Shown piece after piece: positions 8,956-24,046 of a stretch of DNA of 60,525 nucleotides (its first letter is position 1; every line of letters begins with the position of its first letter). Position numbers and translations under genes: made by a program. The DNA comes from Alphaproteobacteria bacterium (GTDB lineage Bacteria; Pseudomonadota; Alphaproteobacteria; Thalassobaculales; Thalassobaculaceae), in NCBI GenBank assembly GCA_013203465.1, contig JABMNR010000107.1, positions 1 through 60,525 of the forward strand. The letters run 5' to 3'. The notes below the pieces were generated by a model. The model saw only the letters and a list, made by a program, of their open reading frames with translations. It was not told the origin of the DNA and made no database searches.

Positions 8956-9765
8956 CTAGATGATCGCGTGGCGGACCCGGGCCGAGACCCATTCGCTGAG
9001 CAGCACGGTCACCAGGATCAGCAGGAAGATCACCGTCACTTGAGGCCAAGCCAGGGTGTTCATGGACTCCTGCAGACGCAGGCCGAGCCCACCGGCGCCG
9101 ACCAATCCCAGCACCGTCGATTCGCGGATGTTGATGTCCCAGCGGAACACGGTGATCCCGGCGAACGCCGGCAGGATCTGCGGCACGACGGCATAGTCCA
9201 CGACCTGCGACCGGCTCGCCCCCGTCGCGGTCACCGCTTCGACCTGCGAGGCGTCGATCTCCTCGATCGCCTCGTAGAGCAGCTTGGCGACAAAGCCGAT
9301 GGACCGTAGGGCGATCGCCACGATCCCCGCCAACACCCCGGGGCCGATGATTGCCACCAGAAGCAACGCCCAGATCAGCGAGTTGATCGACCGGCTTGAG
9401 ACGATGATCAGCAGCGCCAGCGGCCGGACGAAGCGCACGCTGGGGCTTGTGTTCCGGGCCGCCAGGAACGCCACGGGCACCGCCATGACGATGGCCAGCA
9501 GCGTGCCGAGGGTGGCGATGTTGAGGGTGTCCCACATCGGTTTGATCAGGTGCGGAATGTACTCCCAGCGCGGCGGCACCATGCGCGATCCTATGTCCGC
9601 GGCCTGCTGCGGCGCGTCAGTCACGAAGGCCCAGATCGTGGTCTGGGTCATCACCTGCCAGCAGAAGACGAAAAAGGCGACCAGCACGAGCCATCCGGCC
9701 CACATCGCCAGCTCCCGGGACGTGGTGCGCTTGCGCCAGACGGTCGTCGACGCGGCATCGGTCAT
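8956..9765 (-). CDS. phnE: Phosphonate-type ABC transporter permease, second copy
   Basis: The start at 9765 was chosen because its ATG overlaps the TGA of the other permease by one base, giving 269 residues. One N-terminal membrane segment (LAMWAGWLVLVAFFVF) is followed by a binding-protein-dependent permease domain of about five helices. The EAA-loop region reads EEIDASQVEAVTATGAS near residue 170. INIRESTVLGLVGAGGLG near 213 is a conserved PhnE segment. It pairs with the neighbouring PhnE to form the membrane channel for the PhnC ATPase and the PhnD binding protein. Nothing in the protein identifies the imported compound. Confidence 0.9.
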   Translation of the reverse strand: MTDAASTTVWRKRTTSRELAMWAGWLVLVAFFVFCWQVMTQTTIWAFVTDAPQQAADIGSRMVPPRWEYIPHLIKPMWDTLNIATLGTLLAIVMAVPVAFLAARNTSPSVRFVRPLALLIIVSSRSINSLIWALLLVAIIGPGVLAGIVAIALRSIGFVAKLLYEAIEEIDASQVEAVTATGASRSQVVDYAVVPQILPAFAGITVFRWDINIRESTVLGLVGAGGLGLRLQESMNTLAWPQVTVIFLLILVTVLLSEWVSARVRHAII

Positions 9766-10583
9766 CACTGCACCCATTTGCGCACGAAGCCGGACAAGTA
9801 CTCCGCCGCCATGACGATGACGATGATCAGCATCAGGATGGCGGCCGCCGAGTCGTACTCGTACCGGTCCATCGCCGTGTTCAGCGTGGCCCCGATACCG
9901 CCGGCGCCGACGATGCCGATCACCGACGACTCGCGGAAGTTGATGTCCAGGCGATAGAGGCTGAGGCCGATCAAACGCGGCATGACCTGCGGTTGGATTC
10001 CGTAATTCACGATCTGCCACCAGCCGGCGCCGGTGGCGCGGATCGCTTCCGCCTGGCTCTCGTCGATATCCTCGATGTCCTCCGCGAGCAGCTTGGCGAG
10101 GAACCCGATCGTCGCGAAGGACAAGGTCAGGAAGCCCGCGAACGGGCCAAACCCGAACATCACCACGAACAGAATAGCGACGATGATCTCCTGGAAGCTC
10201 CGGGACAGCGCCACGATCGCGCGGCAGACGGCATAGACCGGTAACGGCGCGATGTTACGCGCGGCCCCGATACCGATCGGCACGGAGATGGCGACGCCGA
10301 CCACCGTCGAGGTCACCGTCATGGTGAGGCTCTCCTGCATCCCGATGACGATATCGCCCCACCGGCTGGTGAAGTCGGGCACCAGAAATCCCTTGATGAA
10401 CCGCAGGCCGCGATCCAGCCCTTCCCACACGCGGACCCAATTCACCTCGACCGAACTGATTGCCGTGATCAGATACACCAGAGCGCCGCCATACAGCGTC
10501 CATCGCAGCCCGCGACGTTTGATGAAGGGCGGCCGCGACCAGGTTTGAGCGAAACGGGTCTCCGTCGCCGCGACCGCCGTCAT
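9765..10583 (-). CDS. phnE: Phosphonate-type ABC transporter permease, first copy
   Basis: This 272-residue inner-membrane permease overlaps the phnC stop by four bases (ATGA). It has an N-terminal helix ([14 protein letters not shown]), several further helices, and the coupling-loop segment [17 protein letters not shown] near residue 177. [18 protein letters not shown] near 220 is shared with the second permease, showing that the two are paralogues. Two-permease PhnCDEE systems are known for phosphonate and phosphite uptake. Tight overlaps on both sides imply a single transcript and balanced translation of the two halves of the channel. Confidence 0.92.
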
Positions 10584-11443
10584 GTCAGACCCGCCAGCCG
10601 CTCACGGTCGATCACCTCGCTGACCGGGTCGGACGTCTTCGGGAGTACATCGTCGCCAGCGTCCCCGGATTCCTCGTCGTCGGCCTTGCGGATTGTCGCC
10701 GACCAATCCTCCTCGCCGTAGATGCGGGTGAGCACCTCCGCGTCGAGATCAGCCGGGTTGCCGTCGAATACAACGACACCGGCCTGGAGGCCGATGATGC
10801 GGCGCACGAACTGTTGGGCGAGCGCCACATCGTGGATGTTGATGATGGCCGGCAATCCGCTCTCGTCACAGATCTCGACGATCAGACGCATGATCTGACG
10901 CGACGTCTTGGGATCGAGGGAGGCCGTCGGCTCGTCCACCAGCAGCAGGTCCGGGTCCTGCTCAAGCGCGCGGGCAATACCGACGCGTTGACGTTGGCCG
11001 CCGGAGAGCGCGTCCGCCCGCTTGTCGACTTGATCCGACAGCCCGACACGATCCAGCAGCCGATAGGCTTTTTCCACGGCTTCCGGCGGAAAGCGGCGGA
11101 AGAAGCTGCGCCAGAAGCCGACATAGCCAAGCCGACCCGACAACACGTTCTCCATCACGGTGAGGCGTTCGACCAGCGCGTATTCCTGGAAGATCATGCC
11201 GATCCGCCGCCGAACCTGCCGCAGGCCGCGTCGGCTGAGCTTGGTGACGTCGATGTCGCCGAGAAACACTTGGCCGGAGGTCGGCTCGATCAGACGGTTC
11301 ACGCATCGGATCAGGGTCGACTTGCCGGCGCCGGATGGCCCGATCAGGCCGACTACCTGACCGGGTTCAACCGTGAACGTTACACCGGAGAGCGCCCGAT
11401 CGCCGGTCGCGTAGACCTTTGTCAGGTCATTCAGTCGCAGCAT
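10580..11443 (-). CDS. phnC: Phosphonate-type ABC transporter ATP-binding protein
   Basis: The 287-residue ATPase shows Walker [10 protein letters not shown] at residues 35-43, the ABC signature [15 protein letters not shown] near 148, and Walker [13 protein letters not shown] near 168 with the following H-loop (NIHDVALA). The PhnC-type spacing [18 protein letters not shown] is also present. It powers import through the two permeases. An acidic C-terminal tail of about 35 residues ([13 protein letters not shown]) goes beyond the usual domain end. The gene follows phnD by 45 bases and precedes phnE with a 4-base overlap. Confidence 0.93.
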
Positions 11444-11488
11444 CGGATCGCTCTCCGTGATCGCGGTATCGGTCGATCGCGCAAGCGA

Positions 11489-12451
11489 TCACTTGCAGGT
11501 GTAGGAGACGCCGTTGGCGGTGTCGATCTTCCGGATCACTTCCCAGAACTTCTGGTAGGTGATCGGAATGAACTGCTCTTCGCCGGATCGCGCGAATTCC
11601 TCTTTCAGGGCCGAGCCCTCCCAGGGGAAGGTGAAGAACGCTTCCTTGATCTTCTCCTGAAGTTCGGGCTTGAGGTTGTAGACGTAGCCGAAGCCCGTGG
11701 TCGGGAAGGTCTGGGATTTGTAGATCGACTTGACCTGCTCGGCCTTGATCACGTTGCGGGCGATCATACGGTGCATGACCGAGTTGGCGATCGCCGCCGC
11801 CGGATAGTCCTTGTTGGCCACACCGAGGATCGAGTTGTCGTGCTTACCGGAGAAGACCGGCTCGAAATCCCGGTTGGGTATCATGCCGTAATCGGCCTTC
11901 AGGATCGCCGATGGCGCCTTGAACCCGGAGTTCGAGGTTTGCGAGGTGAAGGCCATCTTCTTGCCCTTGATGTCCTCGACCTTCTCGATGCCGCTGCCCG
12001 GATAGGTGATGATTTCCATGTTGTAGCCGAAGTGACCGTTCTTGCTGGCCATGATGGCGAAGGACACGAACCCGGCGCAGTTGACCGCCAGCGGGTTGGA
12101 CCCGGTGTTGAAGCCGGCGACGTGGAGCCGGCCGGCGCGCATGGCCTCGATCTGGGCGGCGTTGGATTGAACGGGGAAGAACTGAACCTTCTTTCCCGTC
12201 ACCCGCTCCATGTGCCTGAGGAAGCTGTCCCAGACCTTGGCGTAGACGGCGGGGTCCTCAACCGGCGTGTAGGCGAAGATGATCGTGTCGGGATCGACCA
12301 GTTGGCTGGGGTCGGTCGGGGTATCGGCGACCAAATCACCGTTCTTGTCCTGAAAGCGCGTATCCAGCGCCGATGCCGGGGCGGCCCAGGTGACGGCGAG
12401 CGCCGCCGCAAAGCCGAGCGCCGCGGTAGTGATGAAGGTTCTGCGTATCAT
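11489..12451 (-). CDS. phnD: Phosphonate-type ABC transporter periplasmic binding protein
   Basis: The start at 12451 was preferred to the upstream Met at 12481 because GGGAGA lies 6 bases before it and the protein then begins with a clean signal peptide (MIRRTFITTAALGFAAALA, likely cleaved after ASA). The 320-residue mature-type protein has the PhnD pattern: AYTPVEDPAVYAKVWDSFLRHM, then FFPVQSNAAQIEAMRAGRLHVAGFNTG. It captures the ligand in the periplasm. No C-P lyase, phosphonatase or phosphite dehydrogenase gene is seen in this window, so the physiological substrate stays open. It leads the operon phnD-phnC-phnE-phnE. Confidence 0.92.
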   Translation of the reverse strand: MIRRTFITTAALGFAAALAVTWAAPASALDTRFQDKNGDLVADTPTDPSQLVDPDTIIFAYTPVEDPAVYAKVWDSFLRHMERVTGKKVQFFPVQSNAAQIEAMRAGRLHVAGFNTGSNPLAVNCAGFVSFAIMASKNGHFGYNMEIITYPGSGIEKVEDIKGKKMAFTSQTSNSGFKAPSAILKADYGMIPNRDFEPVFSGKHDNSILGVANKDYPAAAIANSVMHRMIARNVIKAEQVKSIYKSQTFPTTGFGYVYNLKPELQEKIKEAFFTFPWEGSALKEEFARSGEEQFIPITYQKFWEVIRKIDTANGVSYTCK

Positions 12452-12700
12452 GATGTTTCTCCCTGTTACCGCACCCTCCACCCGGCCCGAGCCTCGGGTA
12501 GCGTGGGGATGTCTTTAGCACTTGCAGGAATATCGAAGATTCCGAAGAGACTAAAGAAACAAATGTTCCGGCGTACCGGCCCGTCGGTCCGGTCAGGAGG
12601 ATTCCCGATCTGGTCCCAGCGTCGGTGCCGCCCGGTTCCTGGGGATCGTTGAACGGCTGTCGGTGCCGATAGCGACCTTGGCTCCTACCCCCGGCGGGTA

Positions 12701-13120
12701 CTACCCCCGGCTCGGTTGACTGTACTCGCTCTCCACCAGGAATCGCGGGTTGGACAGCTTGAGACGCTCGATCACCAGCGCGCGCAGGACATCGTAGACC
12801 GGCCCCGGTTCACCGAGTTCGTCGTCGTGCTCGCCGTCGCGGATTTCCCGAGCCAGATGGCGGTTGAGGTTGGGGATGCGCTCTGCGGCGTCGAAGCCGG
12901 CGTGGTAGACGTTGTCCTGGCCGTACAGATCGGCGTAGGCATCGAGGACATGGCGTGGCGGCTCGTATCCGGCGGCGACTTCGCGCCGGGCGATGCCGAT
13001 GGCGTTCAACACCATCAGGGCGGCGTATTTCGCGGCGCCATCAAGGGCCGGCAGCACGTCGGTCTTCAAGGATTCCTCGGTCACGGCCAGCAACGCCGCC
13101 CGGCTTGGCTCGTCGAACAT
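12701..13120 (-). CDS. DUF6285-like small protein, partner of the APH kinase
   Basis: The ATG at 13120 overlaps the kinase stop as TGATG and gives 139 residues, MFDEPSRAALLAVTEE onward. No catalytic motif is evident. It is mainly helical, with KYAALMVLNAIGIARREV near 40-57 and ALVIERLKLSNPRFLVE near the end. I associate this pattern with the DUF6285 family, whose genes often sit beside an APH-type kinase and an acyl-CoA dehydrogenase. In the levulinate pathway a small protein, LvaB, is needed with the kinase LvaA. I infer a similar accessory role here. The family assignment is from memory of the pattern, not from a search. Confidence 0.6.
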   Translation of the reverse strand: MFDEPSRAALLAVTEESLKTDVLPALDGAAKYAALMVLNAIGIARREVAAGYEPPRHVLDAYADLYGQDNVYHAGFDAAERIPNLNRHLAREIRDGEHDDELGEPGPVYDVLRALVIERLKLSNPRFLVESEYSQPSRG

Positions 13121-14166
13121 CAGCTTGCCTCCGCCTTGGCGTCCGCGATCTGCCGGATTTGGGCCAGCACGTCGTATTCCATCTCGGCGGCCTTGCGGCC
13201 GGTCAACGCCAGCTCCATGGAGATTTCCTTGCCTGACAAATGCCGTTGGCCCTGGTGCCGGGCGATGATCGCCCAGCGGATAGTGGCCAACATCTCCCAG
13301 AACGGCAGCGACTCCCACTCAAGCGCGTGCCCCGCCTCGGCTTCGTAGCCACGGATGAAGTCTTCGAGATTACCGATGCCGCCGACTTGCCGGTCGTCGG
13401 CACCGAAGCGCCAGCAGCGGGCACAAATCCAGCCCACATCCTCCATCGGATCCGACCAGCTGGCGAATTCCCAGTCCAGCACCGCGGTGACCCTGCCCTG
13501 GTCGGCCGGATCGATCATCAGGTTGCCGCAGCGGAAATCGCCATGACCCAGAGCGGTCATCTGGCTGTCCGGGGCGTTGTGATGCAGCCATCGGATGCCG
13601 TATTCCAACACCGGATGGGCGTCAGGCAGGGCGTCGAGCTGTGCCGCGAACTCGTCGATCCGCCGACGGGCCGGGGACCGTTCATCGAGCGGCAGAAAAT
13701 CGAGATCGGCGTGGCCCGGTTTAATCGAATGGACGCGCGCCAGCTCACGGCCCAGCGCTTCGGTGATCGCTGGCCGGTGGGGGTCGAGGTCGGCGTCGCG
13801 GGCCAGGGTGCGCGGATTGGCGGTGCCCGCCGCCCGCCGCATGACATAGGCGGGCTTGCGCAACACCTTGCCGTCGGCGTCCAGCGCCAACGGCTCCGGC
13901 ACGGTCACGCCCGCCGCGAACGCGGCTTTCAGCAGCGCGAACTCGTGAGCGCGGGAGTGGCTGATCGACACACCGGACGGCGCGTCGGTTCGCAACACCA
14001 GCGGCAGCGAGCCGGCATGCGGTCCGCCGGTCACCTCGGCATCGAGCCGCCAGTTTTCCTGGACAGCGCCGCCGGACATTTTCGCGGGCGGGGCAAGGCG
14101 TAGAAAATCGGCCCCCAACTCCCCTTCCAGCCAGCGTTCGAGCACCTCGATCTCAGCCTGTTCCAT
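13120..14166 (-). CDS. APH-family phosphotransferase, candidate hydroxyacyl-CoA kinase
   Basis: The 348-residue protein has the aminoglycoside-phosphotransferase/choline-kinase fold. The catalytic loop ALGHGDFRCGNLMID near residue 207 carries the Asp and Asn. The metal-binding DWEFASWSDPMEDVGW near 228 corresponds to the DFG segment. Its neighbours are an acyl-CoA dehydrogenase and a DUF6285-like protein, not antibiotic resistance genes. In LvaA and in eukaryotic ACAD10/11, kinases of this kind phosphorylate the 4-hydroxyl of a hydroxyacyl-CoA before elimination. That role is inferred from context. The stop overlaps the small partner, and the start follows the dehydrogenase by three bases. 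Confidence 0.8.
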   Translation of the reverse strand: MEQAEIEVLERWLEGELGADFLRLAPPAKMSGGAVQENWRLDAEVTGGPHAGSLPLVLRTDAPSGVSISHSRAHEFALLKAAFAAGVTVPEPLALDADGKVLRKPAYVMRRAAGTANPRTLARDADLDPHRPAITEALGRELARVHSIKPGHADLDFLPLDERSPARRRIDEFAAQLDALPDAHPVLEYGIRWLHHNAPDSQMTALGHGDFRCGNLMIDPADQGRVTAVLDWEFASWSDPMEDVGWICARCWRFGADDRQVGGIGNLEDFIRGYEAEAGHALEWESLPFWEMLATIRWAIIARHQGQRHLSGKEISMELALTGRKAAEMEYDVLAQIRQIADAKAEAS

Positions 14167-14169
14167 CGT

Positions 14170-15375
14170 TTAAAGGCCCCAACGCCAGAAATCGCCGCGC
14201 TCCTGCTTGTAGAAGCGGGCGAGCACCATCTTGTGCACCTCCGAGGCGCCGTCGACCAGGCGCGCCTGCCGGGCGTAGCGGTAGATCCACTCCAACACCG
14301 TGTCCTTGGAATAGCCGCGCGCGCCGTTGATCTGGATCGCGGCGTCGACCGCCTCGTGCAAGGTGTCGGCGACATGGATCTTGGCCATCGACACTTCCTT
14401 GCGGGCGAAGTCGCCGGCGGCCAGCTTCCACGCCGCTTTCATGGTCAGCAAGCGGCCGATCTCGATCTTGTAGGCAAGCTCGCCGAGCATGGTCTGCACG
14501 CTTTCCCGGTCGGCCAGCTTAACGCCGAAGCTTTCGCGCCGCTCGGCGTACTCGATGGCGATTTCCATCGACCGCTTGGCGAGGCCGAGCCAGCGCATGC
14601 AGTGGGTCAGCCGGGCGGTGCCGAGCCGGATCTGGGTCAGCTTCAGGCCGTCGCCGACCTCCATCAGCCGGTCGGCGTCGTCGATCTCCAGCCCGTCGAA
14701 CTCGATCTCGCAATGCCCGCCATGTTCCTCCGGCCCCATGATCGGGATGCGCCGGACGATCCGCCACCCCGGCTGATCCTTGTGGAACATGAAGGCGCTT
14801 AGTCCCTTGCGCGGGTCGTCGGAGGTACGGGCGATCAGAATGAAGTGGGCCGCGTCCTCGGCGCCGGTGATGAACCACTTGGTACCGGTGACCCGCCAAC
14901 GGTCGTTGCCCGCCGGTTCGGCCTTGGTCAGCATCATCGAGGGATCGGAGCCGGAGCCGGGGCTCGGCTCGGTCATCACGAAGGAGGAGCGGACCGCCCC
15001 ATCGACGATCGGTTGCAGCCATTTGGTCTTCTGTGTCTCGGTTCCGACCCGGTTCAGGATGTACATGTTGCCGTCGTCCGGCGCGGCGACGTTGAAGCAG
15101 GCGGGCCCGAAGATCGACCGGTTGGCCTCTTCGTAGAACGCCGCCATGCCGACCTGATCGAGGCCAAGACCACCCCGCTCGACCGGCATCTGCGGCGCCC
15201 ACAGCCCGGCGGCCTTGACCTTGGCCCGGACCTGGTTGAGCGGCTCGGCCCGGATATTCTCATGGGCGTCGTAGGCATCCCGGTCCGCTTCCAGCGGGAC
15301 AATGTGCTCGGCGACGAAATCTCGAACCCGGAGACGAATTGCGTCGATCTCGGGGGACAGGGTGAAATCCATCAT
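14170..15375 (-). CDS. ACAD10/11-like acyl-CoA dehydrogenase
   Basis: This 401-residue flavoprotein has SFVMTEPSPGSGSDPSMM near residue 131 and TKWFITGAEDAAHF near 163. At the usual catalytic glutamate position it reads LVDGASEVHKMVLAR, so Asp375 replaces Glu. The VDGxxEVH pattern is the one I know from ACAD10/ACAD11 and their bacterial relatives. It begins a three-gene minus-strand operon with the APH kinase and the DUF6285-like gene. The likely role is processing of phosphorylated or hydroxylated acyl-CoAs, rather than standard alpha,beta desaturation. An alternative start at the second Met would shorten it by one residue. Confidence 0.88.
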   Translation of the reverse strand: MMDFTLSPEIDAIRLRVRDFVAEHIVPLEADRDAYDAHENIRAEPLNQVRAKVKAAGLWAPQMPVERGGLGLDQVGMAAFYEEANRSIFGPACFNVAAPDDGNMYILNRVGTETQKTKWLQPIVDGAVRSSFVMTEPSPGSGSDPSMMLTKAEPAGNDRWRVTGTKWFITGAEDAAHFILIARTSDDPRKGLSAFMFHKDQPGWRIVRRIPIMGPEEHGGHCEIEFDGLEIDDADRLMEVGDGLKLTQIRLGTARLTHCMRWLGLAKRSMEIAIEYAERRESFGVKLADRESVQTMLGELAYKIEIGRLLTMKAAWKLAAGDFARKEVSMAKIHVADTLHEAVDAAIQINGARGYSKDTVLEWIYRYARQARLVDGASEVHKMVLARFYKQERGDFWRWGL

Positions 15376-15502
15376 GTGTCTCGCGTTAAGGCTCGCCCCG
15401 TCGGATAGAGCGAGGCTAGGATAGGTTGCTAGCTTACTCCCGATGCGGCGTGGCGCAACGCGCTTCAGCCGCGTATTTCACTCAAATCCAGGACATAAAC
15501 CC

Positions 15503-15859
15503 ATGACGATCCAACGGTTTCACACCAATCAACGGATGAGCCAGGCGGTGATTCACAACGGCACGGTCTATCTCGCGGGCCAAGTTGCCCAGGACGCGCC
15601 GGGTGCCAGCGTCACCGACCAGACCCGCAACATCCTGGAGCGGATCGACGGACTGCTGGCCGAGGCCGGCTCCGATAAGAATCATCTGCTGTCGGCCACC
15701 CTCTGGCTGAACACCATGGACGATTTCGCCGAGATGAACGCGGTGTGGGACGCCTGGGTGCCCGAAGGCCATGCTCCGGCGCGTGCCGGCGTCGAATCGC
15801 CGCGCCTCGCGTCGCCGAAATTCACCGTCGAGATCGGCGTGATCGCGGCGGTTAAATAG
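15503..15859 (+). CDS. RidA/YjgF-family enamine-imine deaminase
   Basis: The start ATG 15503 has AGGA at 15490-15493 and gives 118 residues, the normal family length. [14 protein letters not shown] near 16-29 and the C-terminal [20 protein letters not shown] carry the conserved Arg of the active site. RidA proteins hydrolyse reactive 2-aminoacrylate and similar imines. The next gene encodes an Asp/Glu racemase-fold enzyme and starts with no gap. The pair could therefore belong to amino acid or nitrogen-heterocycle breakdown, where RidA-like proteins also act. It is divergent from the acyl-CoA dehydrogenase operon across about 127 bases. Confidence 0.88.
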
Positions 15860-23258: not shown

Positions 23259-23275
23259 CGCCGCCTCGGCACCGA

Positions 23276-24046
23276 CTACATCATCCAGCCACCGGCAACG
23301 TCCAAGGTCTGGCCGGTGACGAAATGACCGGCGTCCGAGGTTAGGAACAGCGCCGCCGCCGCCACGTCGGCCGGGGAGCCGATCCGGCCGAGCGGCGTGG
23401 CCTTGACGATCGCGGCGTTGACTTCCGGCGGTACACCTTGCGCCAGCGGCGTGTCGATGCGGCCCGGGGCCAGGGCGTTGACGTTGATGCCGTTCGGCCC
23501 AAGCTCGCCCGCCCAGTGCGTTGTGAGTCCCATCAGGGCGGCTTTGGTCGCCGGGTAGTGCGCGCCAACCACCGGGATGAAATTTTTCGCCGCGACCGAG
23601 GATTGATTGACGATCGACCCCCAGCCACGCGTCGCCATGGCCGGGCCGAAGGCCCGCACACCGTGGAAAACGCCGGTGAGATTGACCGCGATCACCCGGT
23701 TCCATTCATCGGGGTCCATCTCCAGGGTCGCGGCACCCTTACCGTCATGTTTGGGTGAGATGCCGGCGTTGTTGATCAGGATGGCGGCGGAGCCGAACGC
23801 GCGTTCCACCACGGTCGCCGCCGCTTGAACCGCGCTCCAGTCTGCCACGTCGCAGCCCACGGCGATGGCCCGGTGCCCGGCGGCGGTCATGGCGTCGGCG
23901 GCGGCATGGGCGGCGGCGGTGTTGGCGTCCAGCACGGCAACGCTCGATCCGGCCTCGGCGAACGCCTTGACCAGGCCGAGGCCGATGCCCGAGCCGCCGC
24001 CGGTCACCACGACCACGCGATCCCTATGACTGCCATCGGTGATCAT
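23276..24046 (-). CDS. SDR-family oxidoreductase
   Basis: The start at 24046 (MITDGSHRDR) gives 256 residues and follows the thioesterase stop by four bases. It has the classical SDR pattern: TGGGSGIGLGL near 15, NNAGIS near 94, catalytic Ser in NQSSVAAKN, and Tyr/Lys in HYPATKAAL. The glycine pattern with an acidic residue (VLDANTAAA) after beta-2 suggests NAD preference. It ends LDVAGGWMM, as do FabG-like dehydrogenases. It is coupled to a 4HBT thioesterase, so the pair may act on a hydroxyacyl-CoA or hydroxy acid. The substrate is unknown. Confidence 0.88.
   Translation of the reverse strand: MITDGSHRDRVVVVTGGGSGIGLGLVKAFAEAGSSVAVLDANTAAAHAAADAMTAAGHRAIAVGCDVADWSAVQAAATVVERAFGSAAILINNAGISPKHDGKGAATLEMDPDEWNRVIAVNLTGVFHGVRAFGPAMATRGWGSIVNQSSVAAKNFIPVVGAHYPATKAALMGLTTHWAGELGPNGINVNALAPGRIDTPLAQGVPPEVNAAIVKATPLGRIGSPADVAAAALFLTSDAGHFVTGQTLDVAGGWMM

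Follow-up and report, generated by a model that had tools for sequence, protein, structure and literature searches.

Three adjacent minus-strand genes within the 60,525-nucleotide stretch analysed here (the window), from an alphaproteobacterium of the Thalassobaculaceae, encode an acyl-CoA dehydrogenase (ACAD), an APH-fold kinase and a small DUF6285-like protein, and raise the question whether their products phosphorylate a hydroxyacyl-CoA and then eliminate the phosphate, and if so, on which substrate. Phosphorylation–elimination chemistry is catalysed by kinase/ACAD pairs, both bacterial and mammalian (PMC11342911). The bacterial point of comparison is the lva operon (LvaA-LvaB-LvaC) of Pseudomonas putida KT2440 (Rand et al. 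2017, as described in PMC6692424 and PMC9399607), in which lvaA, lvaB and lvaC are each required for growth on levulinate (PMC6692424); homologues of lvaABCD in Alphaproteobacteria were, according to the account in PMC6692424, already found by Rand et al. 2017. We consider it very probable, judging from the sequences, that the window module is an alphaproteobacterial form of the LvaABC machinery, which would phosphorylate a 4-hydroxyacyl-CoA and then eliminate the phosphate to give an enoyl-CoA. A preliminary description of the window had taken the locus for a kinase, a phospho-eliminating ACAD and an LvaB-like subunit acting on a hydroxyacyl-CoA, and residue signatures, trees, operon context and gene fusions all lend this core reading strong support.

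The three genes are indeed tightly coupled on the minus strand, as first described (Table 1). The ACAD gene ends (14170) 3 nt ahead of the kinase start (14166), the kinase TGA stop (13122–13120) shares one nucleotide with the DUF6285 ATG (13120), and a GGAGG stands a few bases 5′ of that ATG. Of 40 sampled relatives, 13 have an ACAD at 72–87% identity, nearly always with the kinase and then the DUF6285 gene next to it, and the order ACAD-kinase-DUF6285 is held in nearly all same-family relatives with a window-type ACAD (77–87% ACAD identity). Pairwise dN/dS against family members amounts to 0.11–0.23 for the ACAD, 0.15–0.30 for the kinase and 0.22–0.45 for DUF6285. All three genes are under purifying selection and, given the conserved order and dN/dS values well below 1, are more than chance open frames. 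A RidA-family gene lies divergently beside the module and occupies the same place in many family relatives. Just downstream, on the module's strand, lie genes for an ABC transporter of the phosphonate type, namely a substrate-binding protein, an ATPase and two permeases; we rejected this PhnCDE transporter as part of the unit, since no PhnC-type gene adjoins the module directly in the relatives examined, some relatives having one at a distance of 2.5–3 kb or more.

Table 1. Positions of the module genes, their key residues and nearby genes in the window
Feature	Position	Strand	Basis
LvaC/ACAD10-11-type acyl-CoA dehydrogenase homologue, predicted 4-phosphoacyl-CoA eliminase, 401 aa	14170..15375	-	Pfam, ACAD11 structures, LvaC identity, tree
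Phosphate-binding motif RLGTARLTHCMR: R250, R255, H258, R261 (= ACAD11 R626, R631, H634, R637)	14593..14628	-	alignment with ACAD11
Codon of catalytic Asp375 (= ACAD11 D753), within VDGASEVH	14251..14253	-	alignment with ACAD11
LvaA-type APH-fold kinase, predicted 4-hydroxyacyl-CoA kinase, 348 aa	13120..14166	-	Pfam APH, LvaA identity, tree
Catalytic loop HGDFRCGN, kinase residues 208-215 (D210, N215 = ACAD11 D220, N225)	13522..13545	-	exact match
Metal-binding Asp231 of LDWEF (DFG equivalent)	13474..13476	-	alignment
DUF6285/LvaB-type accessory subunit, predicted kinase partner, 139 aa	12701..13120	-	PF19802, LvaB identity, fusions elsewhere
RidA-family gene	15443..15859	+	
Phosphonate-type ABC transporter genes	8956..12481	-	
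SDR-like frame	23273..24019	-	

The ACAD matches the N, M and C domains of its family (Pfam, E 1e-16 to 1e-36), its closest solved structures in a PDB sequence comparison are those of ACAD11 (8v3u, 8v3v and 2wbi), and it is 42% identical to the LvaC of a Pseudomonas lva-type operon, the LvaA, LvaB and LvaC comparators used throughout being plasmid-borne Pseudomonas homologues with RefSeq names and not the KT2440 proteins. In ACAD11, R626, H634 and R637 contact the 4-phosphate, R631 is a general ACAD arginine and D753 is the catalytic base; substitution of R626, H634 or R637 stops elimination and the phospho-intermediate builds up (PMC12440821). The window ACAD possesses every one of these ACAD11 residues for 4-phosphoacyl-CoA elimination, and the full set recurs in just one other ACAD homologue recovered from the same genome, on contig C8. 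Asp375 had initially been singled out as replacing the usual Glu: the VDGASEVH sequence is exact, but the notion of an unusual departure falls away, as Asp occupies the catalytic position in every subfamily member with the phosphate-binding motif and in ACAD11. With the 4-phosphate elimination residues of ACAD11 all conserved as well, Asp375 is a hallmark of the subfamily, and an odd substitution is ruled out. Maximum-likelihood analysis unites the motif-bearing ACADs in a single clade (41 rows, 100/100). The window ACAD falls inside a mostly alphaproteobacterial subclade of it (33 rows, 100/100), whose sister is the LvaC group (97/86); the ACAD10/11-like proteins branch outside.

The kinase matches the APH family (PF01636, E 2.9e-35; Pfam) and shares 48% identity with LvaA from an lva-type operon on a plasmid of Pseudomonas aeruginosa, against 28% with an ACAD10/11-type kinase encoded on contig C91 of its own genome. 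ACAD11 and 3dxp are its closest solved relatives; the C91 kinase also matches both, very strongly. The catalytic loop is intact, exactly as the preliminary description had it, and H208, D210, N215 and D231 are all in place; all 51 aligned kinases agree in the catalytic His, Asp, Arg and Asn and in the Asp that binds metal. In the kinase tree, LvaB-linked kinases (44 rows, LvaA and the window kinase included) stand apart from the ACAD10/11-type (7 rows), and the window kinase lies in a clade (98/94) that holds LvaA. Five loci in family relatives show a long-branched or shortened kinase and DUF6285, with the kinase catalytic residues present and the neighbouring ACAD strongly conserved; the kinase match in one of these relatives contains an in-frame TAA. 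At another locus, two tandem kinases of the LvaB-linked type are followed by one DUF6285 gene.

The 139-residue protein scores 64.6 bits with DUF6285 (PF19802; Pfam), above the 28.1-bit cut-off. Among its best annotated plasmid relatives is a protein named LvaB, 4-hydroxypentanoyl-CoA kinase subunit, which is 35% identical to it and itself matches PF19802 (85.3 bits), this plasmid "LvaB" name being an automated annotation. The small protein is therefore of the DUF6285/LvaB type, as had been suspected, and not of an unrelated family. A scan of the genome contigs with it returned one relative only, and its nearest named relative belongs to a Thalassobaculaceae MAG. PDB sequence searches with the DUF6285 and LvaB proteins gave no related solved structure, the AlphaFold model from the single DUF6285 sequence (pLDDT 44.5, an all-helical guess) was too poor for a fold search, and the name DUF6285 was not found in the open-access papers searched. 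Kinase and DUF6285 share one open frame in seven alphaproteobacterial loci, and these fusions in other genomes support a physical partnership of the two proteins across the family; in P. putida KT2440, LvaB was pulled down with LvaA (PMC6692424). A histidine-phosphatase-family gene recurs beside kinase-DUF6285 in four loci (Thermus, Azospirillum, Stutzerimonas and Azoarcus), and its product might clear stalled phospho-intermediates. For P. citronellolis LA18T a histidine-phosphatase gene and no lvaB have been reported (PMC6692424); in the matching S. stutzeri cluster DUF6285 sits between kinase and phosphatase, so that the lvaB of LA18T may have been missed.

Each half of the module has natural replacements. 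In one genus of the same family, kinase and LvaB stay at the syntenic RidA locus and the window-type ACAD is gone, a true LvaC-type ACAD (RLAPARLTHCMR, RIYDGPSEVH) being located elsewhere; that an LvaC-type enzyme stands in for the window-type one points to overlapping substrates. The reverse exchange is seen on plasmids of Chelatococcus, Sulfitobacter, Pseudosulfitobacter, Mesorhizobium, Aminobacter and Roseivivax, where the window-type ACAD is accompanied by an ACAD10/11-type kinase, with LvaB absent. That either half can be exchanged for a functional counterpart speaks for a joint role of the two in a single pathway. In the window's own genome the C91 kinase and the second phosphate-motif ACAD on C8 lie on separate contigs, and such a kinase and a motif ACAD are adjacent in several family relatives (five loci); the bacterium thus seems, from its gene content, to hold two parallel 4-hydroxyacyl-CoA systems.

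With the lva operon the module shares adjacent genes of the same families, namely a kinase, a DUF6285/LvaB subunit and an Asp-type ACAD with the phosphate-binding motif. It differs in its order (ACAD-kinase-LvaB instead of A-B-C), in an ACAD of the sister subclade, in identities of 35–48% to the plasmid-borne lva-type operon and in that LvaD, LvaE, a regulator and a transporter are not linked to it. With mammalian ACAD10/ACAD11 (PDB 8v3u, 8v3v) it shares all 4-phosphate contacts and the catalytic Asp of the ACAD as well as the kinase D and N, whereas the window kinase and ACAD are separate polypeptides (one in the mammalian enzymes), a DUF6285 partner is present, and the kinase lacks the Arg next to the αC Glu and is closer to LvaA than to ACAD11. 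Nearest in arrangement are the plasmid SDR-ACAD-kinase-DUF6285 clusters of Paroceanicella profunda and Azospirillum sp. B510, with an ACAD of the same subclade (about 71–72% identity) and the same ACAD-kinase-DUF6285 order; unlike the window module, both keep a linked LvaD-type SDR, and that of Azospirillum sp. B510 adds a histidine phosphatase gene.

The enzymes could in principle be something more ordinary. A kinase for antibiotics, choline or another small molecule, placed in an acyl-CoA operon by chance, would belong to the same APH superfamily and would fit the weak matches that models of macrolide and aminoglycoside kinases give. These matches (NCBIfam) reach 11–25 bits against cut-offs of about 200–700, so that no family cut-off is attained, and the kinase groups with LvaA and apart from choline and antibiotic kinases, contrary to the clustering that the preliminary description had named among its refuting outcomes; as its best solved relatives are ACAD11 and 3dxp, its identity to LvaA is nearly half and LvaB is adjacent or fused, we regard such a kinase as extremely improbable. 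Somewhat less remote, and still very improbable, is an ordinary FAD- and ETF-dependent ACAD of beta-oxidation, for which the canonical three-domain architecture speaks. Conventional ACADs do not have the Asp and the R/H/R phosphate pocket seen here, ACAD10/11 with such a site are inactive on plain acyl-CoAs (both PMC12440821), and the gene is linked to a kinase.

More weight attaches to the possibility that the chemistry is as proposed and the levulinate label wrong, the substrate being another hydroxyacyl-CoA, whether a longer, branched or aromatic one or one with its hydroxyl at position 3 or 5. In its favour, the ACAD belongs to a subclade separate from LvaC, neither an LvaD reductase nor an LvaE ligase adjoins the window module, and a separate C91 kinase and C8 ACAD suggest a partition of substrates as in mammals (PMC12440821). 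The absent neighbours had earlier been taken as a sign of a new substrate, an argument that loses its force on comparison. Full ligase-SDR-ACAD-kinase-LvaB operons with the same ACAD subclade occur in four alphaproteobacterial loci and an SDR alone accompanies this subclade in five others, the array being reduced in the window's own family to ACAD-kinase-LvaB, usually beside the RidA gene. An unlinked SDR on contig C190 of the same genome falls in the LvaD clade (99/98; SDR tree), at 50–61% identity to alphaproteobacterial, Pseudomonas and betaproteobacterial operon SDRs, and LvaE-like ligases on contigs C124 and C205 share 64% and 61% identity with an operon ligase; P. putida with lvaE deleted still grows on levulinate (PMC6692424). 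Given these full operons in relatives, the unlinked SDR and ligases and the lvaE-less growth, missing neighbours make a weak case for a new substrate. Of 25 family genomes, 20 retain the LvaD-clade SDR, and some of these (two genomes) lack the module, so that the SDR may serve another pathway; its tie to the module pathway is plausible from its clade. A further SDR-like frame, in the window itself, has one in-frame TAG and is possibly a pseudogene or an assembly error. With LvaD-clade SDRs and LvaE-like ligases in the operons of close relatives, a true LvaC-type ACAD replacing the window-type enzyme and phosphate-binding residues that are those placed for a 4-phosphate, a different hydroxyacyl-CoA is a serious but distinctly minority prospect. 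The likeliest substrates are 4-hydroxyacyl-CoAs of short or medium length that derive from 4-hydroxy or 4-keto acids, of which levulinate is an example; carrying levulinate itself over to the module would be unsafe, as the identity to the levulinate enzymes is moderate (35–48%).

On the preferred reading, that of an LvaABC-type module for 4-hydroxyacyl-CoAs, the kinase-DUF6285/LvaB complex would transfer the ATP gamma-phosphate onto the 4-hydroxyl of the 4-hydroxyacyl-CoA. The ACAD, with FAD, Asp375 and the pocket R250/H258/R261, would then remove the phosphate to give the 2-enoyl-CoA, a step predicted from exact residue matches, and the product would be partly hydrated to the 3-hydroxyacyl-CoA and enter beta-oxidation. 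Unlinked genes would see to CoA activation and to the reduction of any 4-keto group, with the LvaE-like ligases on C124/C205 and the LvaD-clade SDR on C190 as candidates.

The alignment also bears on what DUF6285 may do. The ACAD11 kinase has been modelled by molecular dynamics to hold CoA by the Arg beside the αC Glu and by R176 (PMC12440821), the former being called R86 in PMC12440821; it would be R84 when the aligned chain is counted with D220 as reference. An Arg precedes the αC Glu in 7 of 7 LvaB-free (ACAD10/11-type) kinases and in 1 of 44 LvaB-linked ones, and the R176 position is Arg in 7/7 and 7/44, respectively. The window kinase has His74 before the αC Glu, Arg167 at the R176 position and an adjacent DUF6285 gene, and so falls outside the ACAD10/11-type, which combines both arginines with the lack of LvaB. 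DUF6285 proteins contain two nearly invariant arginines, R46 (36/38) and R94 (34/38). Because the kinase arginines are mostly missing where LvaB is linked and invariant where it is not, DUF6285 may give the kinase its CoA contact, an idea that rests on one deep tree split and a molecular-dynamics model. The larger proposal, that DUF6285/LvaB is a CoA-binding subunit replacing two kinase arginines and that two parallel 4-hydroxyacyl-CoA routes (the LvaABC-type module and the C91 kinase/C8 ACAD of ACAD10/11-type) split substrates like mammalian ACAD10/ACAD11, is speculative and, taken whole, rather unlikely. The CoA-contact idea nonetheless suggests a mutagenesis-ready reason why a small partner is required by some of these kinases and dispensable for others, the mammalian enzymes among them. 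The module gives a functional context to DUF6285, a Pfam domain of unknown function, and the predicted LvaABC-type phospho-elimination would be widespread in Alphaproteobacteria and separable from the levulinate ligase and reductase.
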